Assembly (NCBI GenBank): GCA_903838355.1
Contig: CAILYC010000063.1
Location: forward strand, 1-64,000
Source: an uncultured Burkholderiales bacterium
GTDB lineage: Bacteria; Pseudomonadota; Gammaproteobacteria; Burkholderiales; Burkholderiaceae_C
DNA length: 64,000 bases
Reading direction: 5' to 3'
The notes under the pieces were generated by a model. It had not been told where the DNA came from. It was given only the letters and a program-made list of their open reading frames with translations, and did no database searches. The position numbers and the translations under genes are program-made. Positions within the stretch are counted from its first letter, which is position 1. Each line of letters starts with the position of its first letter. This document shows, one piece after another, positions 2,631 through 11,917 of the stretch.

Positions 2631-5216
2631 TCAAAATGCGGTTTTAAAAAGCAAGCCATTGGCTTGAAGTCCGGTCAGATTGATTTGAGTGGACAAAGGA
2701 AATGCGCCCGAATCCGCCGCATTGATGGCCAAGGTGAGAACTTGATCTCGGCTATAGGTTCCATTGGCCAAACCGCTGACATAAATTGCTTCAGAGAGCG
2801 CATCAGGCAAAGCACCCACCACGTTTTTATAGACAAAGTCCACCCAGGCCTTGTTGCTGGCCGGGGTGTTGGTGTTGGCAATGCCGAGTTGGCTCTCGAT
2901 CAAAGAATTTTGCTCGATCAACAAGGCCACTTTCGCGTTCGATTGGCCTTGATCGACCAAAGACACCGCTGCTGAGAAATACGTGGGCACCAAACTTGCC
3001 CCAAATGCGGCGCCCGCCAAAATGGCGGCTTTAAAGCTGTTTTGGCCGACTTGAAAGTCCAGCGCCAACACACTCCCATCGGAGAACTTGACGCGCTGTA
3101 TGCTGTTCAAAGTTTCATTGCCCAGAGTCCCCACCTTGTCTTTTAAGGTGACCGTGCTGCCCGAGACCGTCACCGTGAAATTTGCATAGGGCTCGATGAG
3201 GGTCACCGTGTTCAAGCCTGACACCCCATTGATAACCTGGTTGGCGAGTGCGCTATAGACCTGCCCCGGGGTGAGTGTGACCGTGGTCGGGGTGATGGTG
3301 TAGCCGCCTGAGATTTTCAAGAGCAAGGCGGCATCGGTCACTTGCTGTGCGGGCGTGATCGAGAGCACGCTGCTGTCGGTCAAGGTGATGGTGGAAATTT
3401 TATTGACACTTGCATTGAGCAGGGACAAATTGGCCACAAAATTGGCGTCGGTGTCTCGAATGGCCACCGAACTCACGTTGGGCAAGGCCAAGGTGGTGGC
3501 AAAAGACGAGACCGGCACAGACGAGACACTCAAAGCATAAGTTCCAGTGATCAAGGCAAGCGCTTTGGCATCATTGGTCAACTGTGTGGCGCTCACACTG
3601 ATGAGCGCTGGCGAATCCGATTGCGCAATGGCGCTGACTTTGCCCACTTGGGACTGAATGCTGTCGAGGTAGGTGGAAATGTTGGTTGAACTGTCCGTCA
3701 CGCTCAACGATGTGACCTTGGCGTTTTGTGCCAGTGTCGTGAGGCTCGAGAGCGGGACGGCAGACAAGGCGATGCTGTAGGTGTTGCCAATGAGGGCCAA
3801 GACGGCGGCATCGTTGGTGAACTGGGCGTTAGAGATGGATAAAGTCGATGACGCCGAAGTAAGATTGATGGTTTTGAGCTTGGAGATGTTTTGCTGCAAA
3901 CTGTCGATGCCAGACGCGACATTGGTATTGGTGTCGTTGATGGTAAAGGACGAAGCTGCAATCGAGGCCAGGTTGGTGGTGAAAGTGAGCACTGCGCCTT
4001 GTGTGGTGGAGGACACCGCAGCAGAACCACCGACCGTGAAACTGCCATTCGAGCCCAAGGTGAGCAAGGTCGCCCCACTGCCCGCCCCCCCAAAACTCAA
4101 GTACTTGACCGCGGCGTCAATCTTGGTCACACCCAAACTGCCAGCATTGTCCGTCACCGCGAAACCAGAGAATGCGCCGTTTTTGCCCGCGTAAAGCGGG
4201 GTGATTTGAAAGTTGGTGTAAGGAGAGACGAAGGCAACGGTGGTCGTTCCTTTCCCTCCATAGATCGTGTCATTGGGGCCGCCAAACACCACATCGTTGC
4301 CACTGCCCCCGGTGATGGAGGCATTGGCGGTGGGGTCGATCGCCACAACATTGGCGTCACCCGACAAGGTGGTCGAGACCAAGGTCAGGTTTTGAACCGT
4401 GACCGAGGTCTGCCCAGCATTGAAGGTCAAAAACTGCACCGTTGATGCAACCGAGGATGTGCCCGTGCTACCGACATTGTCTTTGACATTAAGACCATTG
4501 TAGGTGTTGCTTGCACCCGTGTACAAAGGGGTAAGGAGGTAATTGCTGTACTGCCCGCCAAAAGTGGTGGTGCCAAAAGGTGCGGTTGCAGATGTGGGCG
4601 TAGGGGTTGGAGTTGGGGTGGGCGTTGCGCCGCTCACGGTGAAGGAGCCGGTGCCGCTCAAGGTGAGCAAAGTCGCACCATTGCCGACGCCACCAAAACT
4701 CAAAAACTTGACCGATGTATCGATGGCCGTGACACCCAGACCGCCCGTTTTGGTGCTGTCCGTGATGGAGTAGCCTGAAAACGCCCCATTTTTACCGTCA
4801 TACAAGGCCGTGACTATGAAGTTGCTGTAGGCTGCAGAAAAAGCAACCGTGGTGCTGCCTTTGCCCCCATAGATGGTGTCATTGGCGCCGCCAAAAATAA
4901 TATCGTTGCCGCCTCCCGCCGTAATGGCCGCATTGGCCAGGGGGTCGACCGCGATCACGTTGGAGTCGCCAGACAAGGTCACCGCAGTTGAGGTCAAATT
5001 CTGCAGCGTGTAAGTGCTGGTGCTGGATCCTGAACCAAAGCTCAGGTACTGAACACTCGAATTGATGGTCTGCGTGCCGGTGTTGCCCACATTGTCTTGA
5101 ATAGACAAGCCAGCAGGGGTGTTGCCGTTGACCACGGGGGTGATCAAATAGTTGGCGTATTGACCGCTCAACGCTGTGGTGTTGGACGCCGTGACAGAAA
5201 GTGATGTTGCGGTCAT
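2631..5216 (-). CDS. Large RTX-like secreted protein with DUF4214-type C-terminus
   Basis: The 861-residue product is rich in Ser, Thr, Ala, Gly and Val and has no Cys and no N-terminal signal peptide, as expected for type I secretion substrates. Residues 18-196 and 221-398 are two copies of one domain, each with RTX-like calcium turns (GGGNDIIFGG, GGSGNDVVFGG, NDTIYGGKG), joined by a PTPTPTPTPT linker. Residues about 410-640 hold four shorter repeats of the LTNDAKALALITG type. A strand-rich RVKFSDGSVLALD segment follows, then a DUF4214-like end (VDFVYKNVVGALPDALSEA). It may be an S-layer, adhesin or exopolymer-binding protein. No secretion ATPase or membrane fusion gene lies in the window. 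The GNAT gene follows in the same operon. Confidence 0.8.
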   Translation of the reverse strand: MTATSLSVTASNTTALSGQYANYLITPVVNGNTPAGLSIQDNVGNTGTQTINSSVQYLSFGSGSSTSTYTLQNLTSTAVTLSGDSNVIAVDPLANAAITAGGGNDIIFGGANDTIYGGKGSTTVAFSAAYSNFIVTALYDGKNGAFSGYSITDSTKTGGLGVTAIDTSVKFLSFGGVGNGATLLTLSGTGSFTVSGATPTPTPTPTPTSATAPFGTTTFGGQYSNYLLTPLYTGASNTYNGLNVKDNVGSTGTSSVASTVQFLTFNAGQTSVTVQNLTLVSTTLSGDANVVAIDPTANASITGGSGNDVVFGGPNDTIYGGKGTTTVAFVSPYTNFQITPLYAGKNGAFSGFAVTDNAGSLGVTKIDAAVKYLSFGGAGSGATLLTLGSNGSFTVGGSAAVSSTTQGAVLTFTTNLASIAASSFTINDTNTNVASGIDSLQQNISKLKTINLTSASSTLSISNAQFTNDAAVLALIGNTYSIALSAVPLSSLTTLAQNAKVTSLSVTDSSTNISTYLDSIQSQVGKVSAIAQSDSPALISVSATQLTNDAKALALITGTYALSVSSVPVSSFATTLALPNVSSVAIRDTDANFVANLSLLNASVNKISTITLTDSSVLSITPAQQVTDAALLLKISGGYTITPTTVTLTPGQVYSALANQVINGVSGLNTVTLIEPYANFTVTVSGSTVTLKDKVGTLGNETLNSIQRVKFSDGSVLALDFQVGQNSFKAAILAGAAFGASLVPTYFSAAVSLVDQGQSNAKVALLIEQNSLIESQLGIANTNTPASNKAWVDFVYKNVVGALPDALSEAIYVSGLANGTYSRDQVLTLAINAADSGAFPLSTQINLTGLQANGLLFKTAF
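4023..5165 (-). repeat. Two tandem RTX-containing domain repeats inside the secreted protein
   Basis: Residues 18-196 and 221-398 align along their whole length: GQY(A/S)NYL start, DNVG(N/S)TGT, LSGD(S/A)NV, the ND(I/V)(I/V)FGG calcium turn, YGGKG(S/T)TTVAF, GKNGAFSG and LSFGG.G.GATLLTL end. The linker between them (residues 198-208) is a Pro-Thr repeat coded by a 6-base tandem near 4590-4625. This is an internal duplication of about 180 codons. Confidence 0.8.
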
Positions 5217-5678
5217 AAAGTGAGGTGGTTGATGGGATAAATTTCACCAGGCGACAAACCCACTTTAGCAGACTTAGGCCTCCAGGCCCCATGTTACAAG
5301 GGGTGTCGTAGGGGTGATGGTAAGGGTGATGGTGGGGTAATAAAAGCGAATGAAGAGATCATTGATCGGCATCAAGCTGCAACCAAGAGCTTCACCGCAT
5401 GAGATCGCTGTCTTTGATCCAGATTTTTGCGTAAATCAGTAACAACTGGAAACAAGCGTAAAGTCGATTTAAAAAAGGTCTGCCGTTGTTTTTTGCCCTC
5501 ACTCAAAGCCTGGCAGGACAATCAAGACCGTGAACTGTGGGCAAGACTGTCCGTGGGCTAAACTTGGTCGCTCTTCGCAGTCGGGAAGAACCAAGGCGTA
5601 CCCATCATGGATAACCAGCGCTTGTAAACGACAATCGTTCTGATACAGTAAAACCTCTGCACGTGAGGGCACGTCGGA
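5217..5678. other. Long intergenic region between divergent genes
   Basis: These 462 bases separate the RTX-like gene (leftward) from the cNMP-binding gene (rightward). They hold imperfect direct repeats of GGGTGATGGT near 5310-5340 and one perfect FNR/CRP-type palindrome at 5362-5375. I see no convincing reading frame and no structured RNA. Confidence 0.6.
5362..5375. promoter_or_regulatory. FNR/CRP-type palindrome TTGAT-CGGC-ATCAA
   Basis: The sequence is an exact match to the FNR/Anr half-site consensus TTGAT-N4-ATCAA. It lies about 150 bases upstream of the RTX-like start and about 305 bases upstream of the first cNMP-binding gene. Which direction it serves cannot be told; an oxygen-responsive regulator is the likeliest reader. 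Confidence 0.5.
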
Positions 5679-6188
5679 TTGATTGACAAACCGCCAGCTA
5701 GTTACTTATTGGATAGATTCCTTTTGGCCCAAATCAACGCCTCATTTCAAATTGAAATCGATCACCTGCACAAGCTGGGTGTCTTGGACGCGACCTCTTA
5801 TAAAAGCATGGAGATATACGAGTCCGGCAAATTGAGCAGCAACGAGCGCCTTTATTTCAGCCTATGGGCCTGCCAGGATTTGAATTCTGTGGCGTTTGAG
5901 GCCAAGAAAAAGATTTTACAAAAGGGTGACCCCATCACCTCTGCTTATTTCATTGTCTCGGGCACCTTGATCACGGTGGATGGCGACCACATCGAACACT
6001 TGGGGCCAGGCGCCGTCATCGGGTTGGCCGAAGGCATCAAGGGCTTGCCCTACCCCAAAACCTTGATCAGTGCCTGCGCAGTTCAAGCCCGGGTTTTGCC
6101 GCTGAGCAAAATTGTGCACCTCAAGTCCAAGCTCCCCACCGTGATGCAAAAAATTCTGAACAACATGGTGGAGAGATCCCTCACATGA
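5679..6188 (+). CDS. Cyclic nucleotide-binding domain protein, degenerate cassette
   Basis: The 169-residue product has an N-terminal helical part of about 65 residues and one CNB beta-barrel (KKILQKGDPITSAYFIVSGTLI, then HLGPGAVIGLAEGI). The phosphate-binding cassette keeps the Glu of FGE (GLAEGI) but the Arg that grips the cyclic phosphate is replaced by the segment LPYPKTL, so ligand binding may be weak or lost. There is no helix-turn-helix, so it is not a CRP-type regulator. The only start available near the domain is TTG 5679; an upstream GTG at 5663 is out of frame. It overlaps the next CNB gene by ATGA, implying coupled translation and probably a two-protein complex. Confidence 0.78.
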   Translation: MIDKPPASYLLDRFLLAQINASFQIEIDHLHKLGVLDATSYKSMEIYESGKLSSNERLYFSLWACQDLNSVAFEAKKKILQKGDPITSAYFIVSGTLITVDGDHIEHLGPGAVIGLAEGIKGLPYPKTLISACAVQARVLPLSKIVHLKSKLPTVMQKILNNMVERSLT

Positions 6189-6553
6189 GTCAATTCAGAG
6201 ACATCAGCTTCAAACCGGGTGAGCTTATTTTTACGTCGGGCGACTTGGCCGACAAGGTTTACTTCATCAAAAGTGGCACTGTCGAAGTGCTCACAGATTT
6301 AGGAGTCCCAATTGCGAAAGTCAGCACCGGCCAGTCCTTTGGGGAACAAGCTTTTTTAAAGGGCGGCGTTCGCGGCGCCACCGTCAAAGCTTTGGATGGT
6401 GTGGACTGCGTGGTGATCACCACCGAAGAAGCCAACGCCTTGCTCTACGGCGCCTCCCCGCTCTTGGTCCCGGTGTTTGAAGCCTTGCTGCTGCAGCAAA
6501 ACATGAGCAATGAGCTTAAAAAAAGCCGCGCCGCTGGCCCCGAGGCCCAGTGA
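6185..6553 (+). CDS. Stand-alone cyclic nucleotide-binding domain protein
   Basis: The 122 residues are almost entirely one CNB domain: FKPGELIFTSGDLADKVYFIKSGTVEV, then a canonical phosphate-binding cassette with F52-G53-E54 and R63 followed by GATV. These are the residues that hold the ribose and cyclic phosphate in CRP and PKA regulatory subunits, so cAMP or cGMP binding is expected. It ends in a short C-helix without a DNA-binding or enzymatic domain. It starts inside the stop codon of the preceding CNB gene, and the phosphodiesterase gene starts 8 bases after its stop. Together the two CNB proteins could act like the tandem CNB pair of a PKA regulatory chain. Confidence 0.88.
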   Translation: MSQFRDISFKPGELIFTSGDLADKVYFIKSGTVEVLTDLGVPIAKVSTGQSFGEQAFLKGGVRGATVKALDGVDCVVITTEEANALLYGASPLLVPVFEALLLQQNMSNELKKSRAAGPEAQ

Positions 6554-6561
6554 GGACCCCC

Positions 6562-7425
6562 ATGAACAACGGGCTTGATCGCGCCCAATACTTGAATTTA
6601 TCGGGCATCCAAGACTGGCAGACCTTGCTCGACTCTTCCCTGACTTTTTTGCGAAAGTCTTGGCAACATCATTGGCTTGGACTGCCCGCGTTGCTGGACG
6701 TTTGCATCGAGACTCTCATCCCTTTGGAGTGGCGTTATGAGCCTCGGATCGCAGCTCACCTCCACTGCGCTCGGCTCGTCGCACAGGAAACAGAAAGGCT
6801 CGCACCACTGTCCTGGGAGCCCAACTACCACAACAGACTGCACTTTGCCGACGCACTGACCTCCATGACCATCTTGTTGGCCATGGAGCGTGAACGCAGC
6901 GGTCACCTGGATGCTTACTGGGCGAGCTTGCTGCTATTGACGGTGACGGCGCACGACTACCTGCACCCTGGAGGGAACAATCAAAATAAATTCGAAATTG
7001 AAAACAAAACGATAGAAGCCCTGCGAGAGGTCTGGCGTACCGAGGCGATTGACACTGAGAGTCAAAGCCGGGTTGAATACATGATTCAGCACACCGACCC
7101 CCAAACGATCGCCCACAACCACGTGTTGGCAAGCCAACACCCCTTCGAATTGAATTTGCACTGGTCGACCGTTTTGATGAACGAGGCCGACATTTTGGCC
7201 AGTTGCACACAACACCACGGCTCGCAACTGGGCTTTCAATTGGCCCAGGAGTGGCGGGCAAAAGACGTTGACTTGCACGACTTCATTGCAACTCCCCAGG
7301 GACGGATCAACTTCCTGCGCTCAGCCCTGTTCACTTCTGCGCCCAGCAAGATTTTAAAAATCAACCTGGCCATTGAGGCAGAAATCACAGGCCTGCAATG
7401 CCAAGATCCAAGCCTGAGTTCTTGA
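6562..7425 (+). CDS. Class I-type 3',5'-cyclic nucleotide phosphodiesterase
   Basis: The 287-residue protein carries the class I PDE catalytic set: YHNRLHFAD at residues 89-97 (general-acid His and first metal His), HDYLHPGGNN at 131-140 (HD pair plus His), NEADIL with a third metal Asp near 210, and PQGRINFL with a purine-clamp-like Gln near 246. It is close to the PROSITE class I signature, missing only its last hydrophobic position. It should hydrolyse cAMP or cGMP to the 5'-nucleotide in the cytosol. ATG 6562 is preferred (GAGGA at 6552-6556); a GTG at 6550 overlapping the upstream stop is an alternative. The two CNB genes upstream and the cyclase across the IS relic make a signalling role very likely. 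Bacterial PDEs are more often class II or III. Confidence 0.82.
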   Translation: MNNGLDRAQYLNLSGIQDWQTLLDSSLTFLRKSWQHHWLGLPALLDVCIETLIPLEWRYEPRIAAHLHCARLVAQETERLAPLSWEPNYHNRLHFADALTSMTILLAMERERSGHLDAYWASLLLLTVTAHDYLHPGGNNQNKFEIENKTIEALREVWRTEAIDTESQSRVEYMIQHTDPQTIAHNHVLASQHPFELNLHWSTVLMNEADILASCTQHHGSQLGFQLAQEWRAKDVDLHDFIATPQGRINFLRSALFTSAPSKILKINLAIEAEITGLQCQDPSLSS

Positions 7426-7440
7426 ACTGCCTGAATTTAA

Positions 7441-7678
7441 GAGGGTGCGCGGAAATCATCTCCGTTAAGGGGGAGGATGAAGAGCGCGGACACCGAAGGT
7501 GTTTCGGGTTGTCGGCTGTTTGGGTGTTTGCTGTTGTTCGATGTTGTTCGATGTCTTGGCGAATGATCGCTACCTGAGCGCCACCACACGAGGCTGCAAA
7601 ATAAGATGGCGACCCTAGCGCGTTGCCCCACAGCTTTTTAGCAACGCTTGGATATTGCTTTTGGCGAATCATCAACAC
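7441..7678 (-). pseudogene. tnpA (Y1 transposase) C-terminal remnant
   Basis: The leftward frame reads RQKQYPSVAKKLWG, then SPSYFAASCGGA and IIRQDIEQH, the C-terminal part of the REP/IS200 Y1 transposase. In active enzymes the residue in IIRQ-Y-IEQ is the catalytic tyrosine; here it is Asp (codon complement at 7553-7555). The N-terminal two thirds, with the HUH metal-binding motif, are gone. A small indel in an ATCGAACAAC repeat shifts the frame before the end, so the last residues differ from relic C. Confidence 0.8.
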
Positions 7679-7736
7679 AGTGTCCTCCTTGGCGAATCTC
7701 GTTGTTATTTCTCATAGACCACAGCACAACTGAGGC

Positions 7737-7988
7737 ATGAAACGCTTACAAGCCTACCAATTTCTGATGGAGCCCAATGGAGAACAGCAGCGTGCAATGC
7801 GTCGTATCGCTGGTTCTTGCGGGTACGTCTGGAACAAAGCGCTGGCACTGCAGATTGAAAATCACAAAGCCGGTGAGAAATTCATTCACCATTTTGCAAT
7901 GTGCAAATGGCTTCCTGTTTGGAAAAAAGAGCCTGATACTTGGTGGCTCAAGGACACCCCTTCACAGCTATTTCAGGGGGTGCTTTAA
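7737..7988 (+). pseudogene. tnpB N-terminal remnant
   Basis: The frame starts MKRLQAYQFLMEPNGEQQ and continues through CGYVWNKAL, which is the helix-turn-helix start of IS605 OrfB/TnpB. It stops at TAA 7986-7988; the expected continuation ELVRAYKKFFDA is still visible just after the stop, then the sequence jumps to the right-end hairpin. The RuvC nuclease domain and zinc finger are deleted, so there is no active RNA-guided nuclease here. Confidence 0.85.
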
Positions 7989-8071
7989 GAGCTGGTACGC
8001 GCATACAAAAAATTCTTTGATGCGTAGCACCGTAGGAATCCCGGTCTCTTCAGGGCCGGGAGGATGTCAAA

Positions 8072-10009
8072 TCAAATGGGCAGACCGGCTTTGCGATAGA
8101 GCGGCAGAAATTTTTGCTCATACCAGTCTTTATAGGCTGGCAAACTGTCGGGCAAAGGTTTGATGAAAAAGGTCAAGGTGGCTTCATTGGAATTGGGATT
8201 CAAGGTCTTCACCTGGGCCAGTGCCATGGCAGCTTTGTCGGAGTCGCCTTTCATCGTGTAGGCAATGGCCAAGTAGGCCCAAATCTGAGCCACTTTGGCG
8301 TTGACTTGGTTGGCCTTGGTGAGCCACTCGATGGCTTGATCGGTGTGGCCCAAGATGATGTTGGCACGCCCCAGCGCCGATAAATTGTTGTCTGTGGGGT
8401 TCAGCGGATCCAAGTTCAGGCCTTGAGTGAGAACGTCAATCGCCTTTTGGGGCTCGCCGCTTTGGTTCAAAATATTGCCCAGTGTAATGTAGGGCGACTT
8501 GGATTTGGGGTTGAGTTGAAGATTTTTTTCTGCATTTTGCTTGGCCCCGATCAAATCGCCTTTTTCGCGATCATAAAAAATCAAGGCTGAATAAATATCT
8601 CGGTTGGCGGGATCAAGTTCCTTGACCTTTAGCGCGAGTTGGTGCAACTCCTCGAATCGCTTGGCACGCTGGTCTTGCTCGGGAGAGCGTGGCGCCAACA
8701 TCCCCAAGGCCTGTGCCAAGCCGCTCATGGCTTCAAGGTTGTCGGGTTCAATCACCAAGGCTTTGCGGTACAAGGCCACCCTTTGATCCAAGGTCTCGAC
8801 ATCAAAGCCTTTTTCCAACAACACCCGGGAGCGCAAAATCAAGTCCGAGGCTTGCGGATTGCTTTTTCTCTTTTCCGTTTCGCTGGCCGCCACAATGAGC
8901 ATGCGAGGCCCCAAACTGCCGCTGATTCGGTTGGTCACTTGGTCTTGCAATTCAAAGAGATTGGACATGTCACCGATAAAGCTCTGCGTCCACAGTTGTT
9001 GATTGGCACTGGCGTCCGAGAGCTGGGCATTGATTTGTAGGGTGTTGCCACTTTTTTTGACTTCACCTTGCAAAACAAAACGCACCCCCAACTCTCGCGC
9101 GATTTGCACCACTGGCGTGGGTTTGTCTTTGTAGGGCAAGGCCCTGACGGCATCGAGCACCACGGCGTCGCGAATGCGCAAAAGGTCTCTGGCAACTTGG
9201 CTTGTCATTCCATCGGCCACATAGGCATCGTTGGGGTCGCCCGTCAAATTGGCAAACGGCATCACCACAATTGAAAATGGGTTGATATTGGGTTTGGGGC
9301 TGCGGTGCAGCGCCAAGTACCCCCCCGCACCAACGAACAGCACCATCACGCCAACACCAACCCCCCTGGCCAAGGGAGACGCCAACAGTCTTAAAAAAAG
9401 ATGGGCGGCGGGCTCAGGCCGAGACGCCGATTCTGCGCGATCGTGCTGGCGATCGTGCTGGCGATAGGGCTTGACCGCCTCCCCTTCAAAAATCACCCTG
9501 AAGGTGGCAATGGGTTCAACAATGTTTTTAAACTGTTGCTCACCCAGACTTTCAAAATCCACGGCAATTTTGCGCCTGACCTCGTCATGAAACTTGGCCG
9601 AGACATGGATTCCGCCAGGCTTGGCACTCGACTCAATTCGGGCCGCCACATTGACACCGTCCCCCAACAGGTTGTCCCCTTCAACGATCACGTCCCCCAA
9701 GTTCAAGCCCACCCGCAACACCATGCGGTCGACTTCATCACAACTGGCGTTGCGAGCAAGCAGGCTCTTTTGAAACCCGAGCGCCGCCTCGATCGCGTCA
9801 ACCGGACTGGCAAACTCGGCAATCACCGAGTCGCCAGCGGTGGTGAAAATTCGGCCGTGGTGGGCCCGAATAAACTCGTCGGTGATGGCTCGACAGGCGC
9901 GCAGATTTTTAAGCGTGCGGTCTTCGTTTTCGCCCATCTTGAGGCTAAATCCCACCACATCGGCCGCCAAAATGGCAGCGAGCTTTCGACGAGGTGCTGG
10001 GTCAGTCAT
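8072..10009 (-). CDS. Class III adenylate/guanylate cyclase with TPR domain
   Basis: The 645-residue protein begins with a class III cyclase catalytic domain: metal Asp17 in AADVVGFS, metal Asp60 in TTAGDSVIAEF, and the transition-state pair Asn120/Arg124 in GDGVNVAARIE. A linker with a 12-base-coded RQHD repeat (9433-9460) leads to one membrane helix (about 214-235). Then comes a TolB/FlgO-like region (IVVMPFANLTGDPNDAYVADG) and several TPR repeats to the C-terminus, probably periplasmic. This layout is common in proteobacteria and makes a cyclic nucleotide in response to an outside signal. GAAGG lies 9 bases before the ATG. The usual substrate Lys is not obvious (RIFTTAGD), so cAMP versus cGMP is open. 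Confidence 0.88.
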   Translation of the reverse strand: MTDPAPRRKLAAILAADVVGFSLKMGENEDRTLKNLRACRAITDEFIRAHHGRIFTTAGDSVIAEFASPVDAIEAALGFQKSLLARNASCDEVDRMVLRVGLNLGDVIVEGDNLLGDGVNVAARIESSAKPGGIHVSAKFHDEVRRKIAVDFESLGEQQFKNIVEPIATFRVIFEGEAVKPYRQHDRQHDRAESASRPEPAAHLFLRLLASPLARGVGVGVMVLFVGAGGYLALHRSPKPNINPFSIVVMPFANLTGDPNDAYVADGMTSQVARDLLRIRDAVVLDAVRALPYKDKPTPVVQIARELGVRFVLQGEVKKSGNTLQINAQLSDASANQQLWTQSFIGDMSNLFELQDQVTNRISGSLGPRMLIVAASETEKRKSNPQASDLILRSRVLLEKGFDVETLDQRVALYRKALVIEPDNLEAMSGLAQALGMLAPRSPEQDQRAKRFEELHQLALKVKELDPANRDIYSALIFYDREKGDLIGAKQNAEKNLQLNPKSKSPYITLGNILNQSGEPQKAIDVLTQGLNLDPLNPTDNNLSALGRANIILGHTDQAIEWLTKANQVNAKVAQIWAYLAIAYTMKGDSDKAAMALAQVKTLNPNSNEATLTFFIKPLPDSLPAYKDWYEQKFLPLYRKAGLPI

Positions 10010-10219
10010 GAATTACCTTCAAGAGTGGGGGACATGGGGCATATTTCACCGCAAGGAAAGGGGTCTGAATGAAAAGTCCCTCTTCATTTTGGCTCTCCAT
10101 GCATAGACCAGTATAGCCAGATCGTTTGGGGACTGAAAACCAAAAGTCTAATGGTAAATCATAGATCCAAGGCCCACCAATGCACAGTATATTGCCCCCA
10201 TCACCCAGGGAGATCAAAA

Positions 10220-11917
10220 TTGAAAATCAAAAATATCGCTCAACTCATCTTGTCCATCAGCAGTGGTCTTTTGAGCCAAGGGAGTTGGGCGCAAACCGAC
10301 GCAGACTTGCTCAATGACGCCACCACACCCAAAGACGTCTTGGTCTATGGCATGGGTTATCAGGGACAACGCTTTAGTCCGCTCAAACAGATCAACAAAT
10401 CCAATGTCAAAAAATTGGTCCCCCTGTGGTCTTATTCTATGAATGACAGCCGGGGGTCGGAGTCCTTTCCCCTGGTCAAAGACGGTGTGATTTACGTCAC
10501 CTCCCACAACGCCACCGTCGCCGTCAATGCCCTGACAGGCAAACAAATTTGGAAGGTCGCCCACGACTATCCCCCTGAGACCTTGCGCGTGGTTTGCTGC
10601 GGCATTGTGAACCGCGGAGCAGCACTTTATGAAGGCAAAATCATCCGCGCCTTGATGGACAACCACATCATTGCATTGGACATGAAAACCGGTCAAGAGG
10701 TCTGGCGCACAGCCTCCCCCGATCCTGTCAAACCCGAGAACGGTTACGCCATGACCGGCGCCCCCCTGGTGGTGGGTGGGGTGGTGGTGGTCGGTGTCGC
10801 CGGCGCCGAATATGGACACCGCGGCTTCATTGAAGCCTATGACGCCAACAGTGGCAAACACCTCTGGCGCCACTACAACGTGCCTGCTGCGGGCGAGCCT
10901 GGGGTCGAGACCTGGGCTGACAAGTCCTATGAAACAGGGGGTGGGAGTTCCTGGATCACGGGCACGTATGACAAAGACCTCGATTTGGTTTATTGGGGGG
11001 TGGGCAACCCGTCGCCATGGAACCCACGCTCGAGGGCAGGTGACAATCTCTACACCAACTCCATTGTGGCATTGCGCCCCAAGACCGGCGAGATGGTGTG
11101 GCATTACCAGGTCTCTCCTGGCGATCCGTTTGACTATGATGCGGTGCAAACGCCTGTGATTGCCAATCTCAAAATCGCTGGCAAAACTCAAAAAGTGGTG
11201 ATGCAAGCCAACCGCGGTGGTTTTTTATACGTTTTGGATGCGGCCAGTGGCAAACTTTTAGCCGCCAACCCCTTTGAGAAAGTCAATTGGGCCGATTCCG
11301 TCGATTTGAGCACTGGTAAACTCAACTACACCGATGCCTACAAAGAGGCGCTGCAGGGTAAAAAAGTTGATATCTGGCCCTCTTCGAGTGGCGGCACCAA
11401 TTGGCAGCACTTGTCGTTTAGCCCGATCACGCAAAAACTCTACATCAACACCTTGCACATCGGCATGAGCTATGAAGCCCCCCCTGAGACTGAGCCCTAT
11501 AAAGCAGGCAAACCCTCTGGACCCGGAACCGTGAAAAGAAAACCCCTCTTTGACGACCCCAATGTCAGGGGTTATTTGAAAGCGGTTGACCCCATGACGG
11601 GCAAGGCATCCTGGGCCACGCCGTTTCAGTCTCCCAACTGGTCTTCGACCATGGTGACCGCCAGCAATTTGGTCTTCACTGGGGTGATGACTGGAGAGTT
11701 CCAAGCGTTGGATGCGGACACGGGCAAACTGCTGTGGAGTTTTCAGACACCATCGGGCATTTTGGCCCAACCCGTCACTTGGGAAAAGGATGGCAAGCAG
11801 TACGTGACCATCATGAGCGGTATTGGAGGGGTTTATGCCCTGTTTGCGGGCGACCCCAATTTGAAAAACGTTCCCAGTGGCGCGAGCTTGTGGACTTTCG
11901 GTTTGTTTGACAAATAA
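10220..11917 (+). CDS. PQQ-dependent alcohol dehydrogenase, lanthanide-type active site
   Basis: This is a type I quinoprotein dehydrogenase (565 residues) with an eight-blade propeller. Starting at TTG 10220 (AGGGAG at 10207-10212) gives a clean signal peptide ending SQGSWAQ; an upstream in-frame ATG at 10151 would add 23 non-signal residues. Visible ligands are the vicinal disulfide C126-C127, Glu197 in AGAEYG, Asn263 in GNPSPWNP and Asp305-Tyr306-Asp307. The extra Asp two residues after the catalytic Asp is the mark of lanthanide-dependent XoxF/ExaF/PedH enzymes. It should oxidise primary alcohols in the periplasm and pass electrons to a cytochrome c, such as the one at 12298. Confidence 0.88.
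   Translation: MKIKNIAQLILSISSGLLSQGSWAQTDADLLNDATTPKDVLVYGMGYQGQRFSPLKQINKSNVKKLVPLWSYSMNDSRGSESFPLVKDGVIYVTSHNATVAVNALTGKQIWKVAHDYPPETLRVVCCGIVNRGAALYEGKIIRALMDNHIIALDMKTGQEVWRTASPDPVKPENGYAMTGAPLVVGGVVVVGVAGAEYGHRGFIEAYDANSGKHLWRHYNVPAAGEPGVETWADKSYETGGGSSWITGTYDKDLDLVYWGVGNPSPWNPRSRAGDNLYTNSIVALRPKTGEMVWHYQVSPGDPFDYDAVQTPVIANLKIAGKTQKVVMQANRGGFLYVLDAASGKLLAANPFEKVNWADSVDLSTGKLNYTDAYKEALQGKKVDIWPSSSGGTNWQHLSFSPITQKLYINTLHIGMSYEAPPETEPYKAGKPSGPGTVKRKPLFDDPNVRGYLKAVDPMTGKASWATPFQSPNWSSTMVTASNLVFTGVMTGEFQALDADTGKLLWSFQTPSGILAQPVTWEKDGKQYVTIMSGIGGVYALFAGDPNLKNVPSGASLWTFGLFDK

Follow-up and report, generated by a model that had tools for sequence, protein, structure and literature searches.

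A putative CRP-independent cyclic nucleotide read-and-erase module with exchangeable class III cyclases in Burkholderiales

Introduction

Cyclic AMP (cAMP) signaling in bacteria is usually told as a story of CRP, with class III phosphodiesterases (PDEs) removing the messenger. Here, we describe a gene set found in a 64,000-nucleotide stretch of an uncultured Burkholderiales bacterium (assembly GCA_903838355.1, contig CAILYC010000063.1, positions 1 to 64,000 of the forward strand; this whole stretch is referred to as the window), in which two stand-alone proteins with a cyclic nucleotide-binding (CNB) fold, CNB1 and CNB2, are encoded in front of a class I-type PDE, and a class III nucleotide cyclase faces the three genes. 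The combination of cyclase, CNB receptor, and PDE is reminiscent of cAMP-CRP/Vfr with CpdA, from which the locus differs in that its receptor has no DNA-binding domain, its PDE is of class I type and not class III, and its genes are clustered. Class III is the widely distributed PDE class in bacteria, with classes I and II being more restricted there (PMC13087886).

Two PDEs of Dictyostelium, GbpA and GbpB, are activated when cyclic nucleotides bind to their two CNB domains (PMC11988041), and by analogy the PDE of the window is a plausible partner of its CNB proteins. Both systems couple two CNB domains to a cyclic nucleotide PDE; however, GbpA and GbpB are single polypeptides with catalysis of the metallo-beta-lactamase type (class IIb), whereas here the proteins are separate, the PDE is of class I type, and one of the CNB domains appears unable to bind. 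A further comparison is offered by Pseudomonas aeruginosa, where SiaC activates the diguanylate cyclase SiaD through direct binding, and such domains are suggested by the authors to modulate adjacent proteins (PMC8457831). Sia-like genes are found with the cyclase and CNB genes in relatives of our locus, though not in the window, and a class III cyclase there takes the place of SiaD. Finally, the top-scoring solved relatives of CNB2 are the CNB domains of PKG and PKA, whose tandem arrangement is also seen in natural fusions of CNB1 and CNB2; here, however, the set includes no kinase, and the arginine is missing from one of the two domains.

We propose that CNB1, CNB2, and the PDE constitute a self-contained, CRP-independent module that reads and erases a cyclic nucleotide, most likely cAMP, with whichever class III cyclase adjoins it as the input, a reading to which we assign a probability of roughly 0.7. 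The parts belong to known families. Neither the combination of a binding and a non-binding CNB protein with a class I-type PDE that is a bare catalytic domain nor the swapping of cyclases around it was found among the top matches in the open-licence PMC literature, nor was a prior paper on this gene set, which is a weak negative.

The CNB Pair and the Phosphodiesterase

All four genes of the original prediction were confirmed as open reading frames, each with a Pfam match above its cut-off. CNB1 (5679..6188, plus strand) is a stand-alone CNB-fold protein of 169 amino acids (PF00027, 33.1 bits, cut-off 27.5), the start of which is uncertain, as it may lie at TTG 5679 or at TTG 5727, where the conserved part begins. 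CNB2 (6185..6553, plus strand) is a single CNB domain of 122 amino acids (PF00027, 60.8 bits, cut-off 27.5), and the predicted ATGA overlap of the two genes is present at 6185-6188. The PDE (6550..7425, plus strand) is the catalytic domain only of a class I-type 3',5'-cyclic nucleotide phosphodiesterase (PF00233, 25.0 bits against a cut-off of 24.8, with 61 residues matched); counted from ATG 6562, the likely start (GTG 6550 being also possible), it begins 8 bases past the CNB2 stop, as had been stated.

CNB domains that bind their ligand are recognized by a phosphate-binding cassette with a Glu and an Arg. CNB2 has a canonical cassette, FGEQAFLKGGVRGATVKA, together with a conserved C-terminal VFEALLLQQNM segment, whereas CNB1, though a member of the same fold family, PF00027, has the pocket loop GPGAVIGLAEG without the phosphate-binding arginine, and a conserved N-terminal segment. 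The cassette arginine is found in 60/61 rows of the CNB2 type and, at the aligned position, in none of the 42 rows of the CNB1 type, which keep a GPG[SA]hhxLAEG-like loop in place of the arginine cassette. It should be noted that the rows were sorted by their FGEQ/FGEA motif, so that the cassette Glu is not an independent count, and that they include duplicates (L032 is the window; L027 and L072 are one place). Alignments A3, A4, and A6 were dropped, as MAFFT had superposed one CNB type on the other, and A5 was used. Judged by these residues, CNB2 is likely the cyclic nucleotide sensor and CNB1 probably its non-binding partner; the claim of two sensors is not borne out for CNB1, which lacks a normal pocket. 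CNB1 homologues numbered 39 in a single search and 347 by profile among 7994 scored candidates.

Neither protein has the helix-turn-helix behind the CNB domain that defines the CRP/FNR family, and no helix-turn-helix family was found in either at E 0.1. Besides CNB1 and CNB2, the search of the window genome gave two further CNB proteins (four in all), one of them FNR-like with cysteines in its N-terminal part and the other CRP/FNR-like with no arginine in its cassette (these features were read by eye). Of the CNB proteins found in this 87.6% complete genome, CNB2 is thus the only likely cyclic nucleotide receptor.

Natural fusions of the two proteins occur in either order, which supports a joint complex: CNB1 comes first in L057, in P0174 (nearly identical to it, with 9 member sequences), and in P0205, and CNB2 comes first in L024, L030, and L097.

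The signature of class I PDEs comprises an HD(x2)H(x4)N metal site, a general-acid His, and a distal Asp. The window PDE carries this signature, the residues H94, H98, H135, D136, H139, N144, and D214 being identical in 28/28 aligned rows, and its predicted structure is an all-helical catalytic fold across the whole domain. Eukaryotic class I PDEs also have an invariant purine-binding glutamine, for which the nearest candidate by sequence, Q250, is a glutamine in 13/28 rows. A plasmid-borne PDE was considered and rejected, as no match was found in 72,556 plasmid records.

The inherited domain names could mislead, with CNB1 and CNB2 answering to another ligand or to none and the PDE acting on another substrate. 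The missing arginine of CNB1, the purine-binding glutamine that was not recognized in the PDE, and two genomes with CNB pairs and no class III cyclase match (see below) all fit such an explanation, but the cassette of CNB2 and the metal site of the PDE are conserved nearly without exception and cyclases are repeatedly found beside the CNB2 and PDE genes, and we consider it very improbable.

Distribution of the Trio in Related Genomes

To follow the gene set in relatives, we used a family set of 299 genomes, the window's own included, with thresholds of E up to 1e-5 for the PDE and up to 1e-8 for CNB1. A PDE relative is encoded in 8/299 genomes and a CNB1 relative in 7/299, and all seven CNB1 genomes fall within the eight PDE genomes (hypergeometric 2e-13, kinship ignored); the only PDE genome without a CNB1 match is G161, in which the PDE sits at a contig end. 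An order-wide sample of 399 genomes yielded CNB1 in 11. A further data set was obtained by scanning contigs of species genomes with two short CNB1 peptide patterns, which favour close relatives; 80 stretches matched and 41 loci were confirmed. According to their record titles these belong to Burkholderiales, Limnohabitans, or metagenome-assembled genomes (MAGs), and they are presumably mostly from freshwater. L062 and L064 come from the records of the Limnohabitans isolates G3-2 and 15K.

In 32/41 loci, CNB1, CNB2, and the PDE follow one another on a single strand (the PDE of L044 is incomplete at a contig end), which together with the co-occurrence above supports a recurrent gene set. Eight of the 41 loci have a CNB pair that is not directly followed by a PDE, and L073 is truncated; L058, L059, L060, and L073 have a PDE close by on the opposite strand. 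For L068 and L071, the PDE of the genome appears to be on a contig other than that of the locus (G720:C7 and G723:C40), with a class III cyclase domain about 0.3 kb from it. The trio is present twice in one MAG, Kiruna bin-05775, with L035 and L038 on separate contigs.

It may be asked whether CNB1 and CNB2 are mainly the regulatory subunit of the PDE, such that the messenger on CNB2 would switch the PDE on or off and the resulting feedback would shape cAMP pulses, with any downstream receptor being elsewhere. A bare catalytic domain directly behind the CNB pair in those 32 loci, the lack of a CNB1 match in only one of the eight PDE genomes (G161, the contig-end case), and the precedent of GbpA/GbpB, albeit with another catalytic fold (PMC11988041), speak for this. 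Against it, no fusion of a CNB domain with the PDE was seen among proteins of up to 1.75 times the query length, and CNB1-like pairs without a PDE match occur in all six genomes of family f18 that carry them, as well as in G584, G623, and G689; because the pair occurs without a PDE match, it must have another capability. We regard PDE regulation as the main role of the pair as unlikely, and retain the broader read-and-erase module, in which the PDE may still be one of the partners.

Proximity and Exchange of Class III Cyclases

Class III cyclases are found near the trio far beyond their density in the respective genomes. PF00211 matches were counted in 41 genomes (40 with loci, and the window's own), and a class III cyclase lies within 5 kb of the CNB1/PDE span in 23/41 loci versus 0.19 expected from the genome-wide density and the available flank; among these 23, L057 has only broken cyclase pieces, and in L040 and L043 the cyclase runs off the contig. 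Within the whole fetched stretch (up to 10 kb) the number rises to 27/41, and of the ten loci flanked by 8 kb or more on each side, eight have a cyclase, L038 and L072 being the misses. In 21 genomes there is exactly one PF00211 match, and in 17 of these the match lies within the locus. The four exceptions are L057 (other contig), L041 (a contig of 3.2 kb), G720/L068, and G724/L072, and in the latter two the only cyclase is found at 0.3 and 9.6 kb, respectively, from the PDE. Relatives with the PDE and CNB genes and no nearby cyclase, which the original prediction had named as evidence against itself, are in part found, as neither L038 nor L072 shows a cyclase in its fetched stretch and in six genomes of another family the CNB pair occurs without the PDE. 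An extreme density of cyclases was observed in G623, a genome of the same order (its locus, L091, is C17:1-20000), with 35 class III cyclase matches in 1.7 Mb at 81% completeness; one of these lies in a SiaABC-like set beside CNB1-CNB2.

The cyclase of the window (8072..10009, minus strand) is predicted to be membrane-anchored, with a single hydrophobic segment seen by eye around residues 208-235, and combines a class III cyclase domain (PF00211, 37.1 bits, cut-off 21.9) with a C-terminal part matching TPR families. Class III cyclases depend on two metal-binding Asp and on a transition-state Asn and Arg, and adenine is selected in the adenylyl cyclases by a Lys plus an Asp or Thr. The TPR cyclases of the window and of L033 retain the two metal-binding Asp as well as the Asn and Arg but have T and N at the purine-selecting places (GRIFTTAGD, DNLLG/DNLYG), unlike adenylyl cyclases, so that their product is not readable from sequence. 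Beside the trio, such a TPR cyclase was seen in the window and, among the 41 relatives, in L033 alone. The fixed four-gene cassette that had been predicted is therefore rejected; the set consists of three genes and an exchangeable cyclase. The cyclase does face the trio within 4.7 kb, as claimed, but is not adjacent to it, as 646 bases (7426-8071) separate the stop codons of the two, compared with 3 bases between the PDE and cyclase stop codons in L033.

It is conceivable that the trio is real and the TPR cyclase of the window a chance neighbor serving something else. Its rarity beside the trio, the 646-base gap with the remnant of a TnpB gene, and the non-canonical purine-selecting residues agree with this; however, it is the sole PF00211 match in the window genome (2.74 Mb), the TPR cyclase of L033, with its stop codon so close to that of the PDE, is likewise the sole class III match in its genome, and the same neighborhood holds other cyclase types in relatives. 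We therefore hold a chance association to be improbable, and continue with the cyclase as an exchangeable input of the module. A class I cyclase was found neither in the window genome nor in 18 others.

Four cyclase architectures were distinguished around the trio. The first is a soluble cyclase with SiaA-, SiaB-, or SiaC-like genes (e.g., L052, L045, L055). The second, a response-regulator cyclase with a histidine kinase and often chemoreceptor genes, is close in L037 and L039, 2.9 kb away in L073, and at 6.6 to 8.6 kb in L062, L064, L066, and L067. A CHASE2 cyclase directly behind CNB2 is found in L058 and L059, and the TPR type in the window and L033. A fifth architecture was seen in L049, where an alpha/beta-hydrolase cyclase is encoded at a distance of 3.7 kb. 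On the CNB1 tree (43 rows, 28 labelled), the four types require at least 4 changes, where the minimum possible is 3, and 4 changes remain when the doubtful labels and L091 are left out (42 rows, 24 labelled). On the reduced tree, well-supported branches require that the response-regulator type arose or was lost at least twice, whereas the Sia type is compatible with one origin. In L091, from outside the family, CNB1-CNB2 is again paired with a SiaABC-like set and a cyclase, in divergent orientation. The contigs of L045 and L068 are titled Bordetella parapertussis, a label that looks doubtful; in the CNB1 tree L045 groups with Comamonadaceae MAGs, and the neighbor of L068 is a contig from an uncultured lake bin.

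In those of the 41 loci in which both motifs lie in one frame, the Sia-linked, CHASE2, and response-regulator cyclases have a K with T/D, and it is this Lys with Thr or Asp, as expected of adenylyl cyclases, which points to cAMP as the messenger; outside these groups the Lys place is occupied by R in L092 and by H in the second cyclase of L028. At least one SiaA-, SiaB-, or SiaC-like gene accompanies the cyclase and CNB genes in 13/41 loci, mostly directly before the cyclase, while no relative of these three was found in the window. SiaB and SiaC in a row were recovered in relatives, with a SiaB-family kinase in L052 (NF038262, 134.3 bits, cut-off 85) and a SiaC phosphoprotein in L056 (PF09345, 113.7 bits, cut-off 24.5). 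The SiaA-like protein of L052, with SpoIIE and 7TMR-DISM domains, falls short of the SiaA phosphatase equivalog NF038263 (E 2.9e-53, 181.4 bits, cut-off 700). Because a class III cyclase replaces the diguanylate cyclase, cAMP would be the messenger in the Sia-linked loci, and control of the cyclase by SiaC is likely there, given the direct activation of SiaD by SiaC and the suggestion that such domains modulate adjacent proteins (PMC8457831).

The trio lies near FliD, FlgK, and chemoreceptor genes in L062, L064, L065, L066, and L067, with FliD and FlgK also present in L069 and L070. A link to flagella or motility was rejected, as flagellin is encoded in 18/19 module genomes versus 235/299 family-wide, which gives no separation. 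PilT-type ATPases exceed the cut-off in 5/19 module genomes, the window genome lying under it, and give no clear picture.

Proposed Mechanism and Its Weighing

Under the read-and-erase reading, the cyclase would make the messenger upon a stimulus of its own sensor part, which may be the TPR part in the window; in relatives, CHASE2, a phosphorylated receiver, or SiaC may take this role. The intact phosphate-binding cassette suggests that CNB2 would bind the messenger. CNB2 and CNB1 would act in one complex, consistent with the fusions observed, in which CNB1 may relay the change to a protein partner. The PDE, with its conserved catalytic residues and predicted fold, would destroy the messenger, reset the switch, and keep the signal local. 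Output would then be by protein contact rather than DNA binding, the co-encoded PDE being the first candidate partner. The make-sense-erase circuit without a DNA-binding output that had been proposed accordingly holds up in its recurrent gene set, in the nearness of a cyclase beyond genome density, and in the lack of a helix-turn-helix in CNB1 and CNB2, and the absence of a DNA-binding output also fits the other two CNB proteins of the genome; its fixed set of four genes and its second sensor have to be given up.

Several observations weigh against this reading. The module is rare and patchy within the family, and G080 and G184, of the window's own genus, gave no match. The PDE match is 0/6 in the f18 genomes with CNB1-like pairs, and two of the six (86 and 84% complete) have no PF00211 match either; since these pairs occur without a PDE, and two without a class III cyclase, the CNB pair is older or wider than the make-sense-erase set and can exist without local making or erasing. 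Fourteen of the 41 loci have no cyclase in the fetched stretch, mostly on short contigs, but not so L038, where the trio has 10.0 kb before and 8.8 kb behind it, and L072, where the CNB pair has about 10 kb on each side; the genome of L038 holds four class III cyclases elsewhere as well as the second trio copy at L035. As the loci are related to each other, their counts are not independent events. The structure prediction of a CNB1-CNB2 fusion (pLDDT, the predicted local distance difference test, 43.3; pTM, the predicted template modeling score, 0.37; 15-row alignment) gave no structural support for a contact, and the broken cyclase pieces of L057 weaken its fusion as evidence. No invariant glutamine of the purine-binding type was recognized in the PDE rows; the product and activity of the window and L033 cyclases are uncertain, with T and N replacing Lys and Asp/Thr; and the window genome is incomplete.

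If the reading is true, the locus would encode the whole of a small make-sense-erase circuit that lacks a transcription factor, with an exchangeable input and a PDE belonging to a class known from eukaryotes, and CNB1 and CNB2 would be concrete candidates for non-transcriptional cAMP receptors. In the Sia-linked relatives, it could be tested whether a SiaABC-type switch controls an adenylyl cyclase. A wider proposition, which we put forward tentatively and at somewhat less than even odds, is that freshwater Burkholderiales possess a portable cAMP receiver, composed of a binding CNB, a pseudo-CNB, and a dedicated class I PDE, that replaces CRP as the cAMP output and is wired behind at least four cyclases, including a SiaABC-governed adenylyl cyclase, with cAMP and not cyclic di-GMP being the messenger of that switch.

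Neighboring Features

No RNA elements were found in 5200-10400 at Rfam gathering scores, and promoter and terminator patterns at the locus were not above those of shuffled sequence. The 646 bases between the PDE and the cyclase contain an 83-amino acid N-terminal fragment of TnpB (IS200/IS605 OrfB; 7737..7988, plus strand; PF12323, 52.2 bits), the match of which to NF040570 is under the cut-off. Its region shows DNA similarity to IS200/IS605 transposase regions of plasmids, and no inverted repeats were found in 7420-8080. The fragment is a remnant of a decayed IS200/IS605-type insertion and does not belong to the module. Upstream of CNB1 and pointing away from it, an 861-amino acid protein with RTX calcium-binding repeats and DUF4214 is encoded at 2631-5216 (minus strand), and looks like a surface or secreted protein. 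The host looks like a freshwater bacterium, and twelve solute receptors, which we take to be Bug/TctC-like, were counted by eye in the list of open reading frames at 16850-52652.

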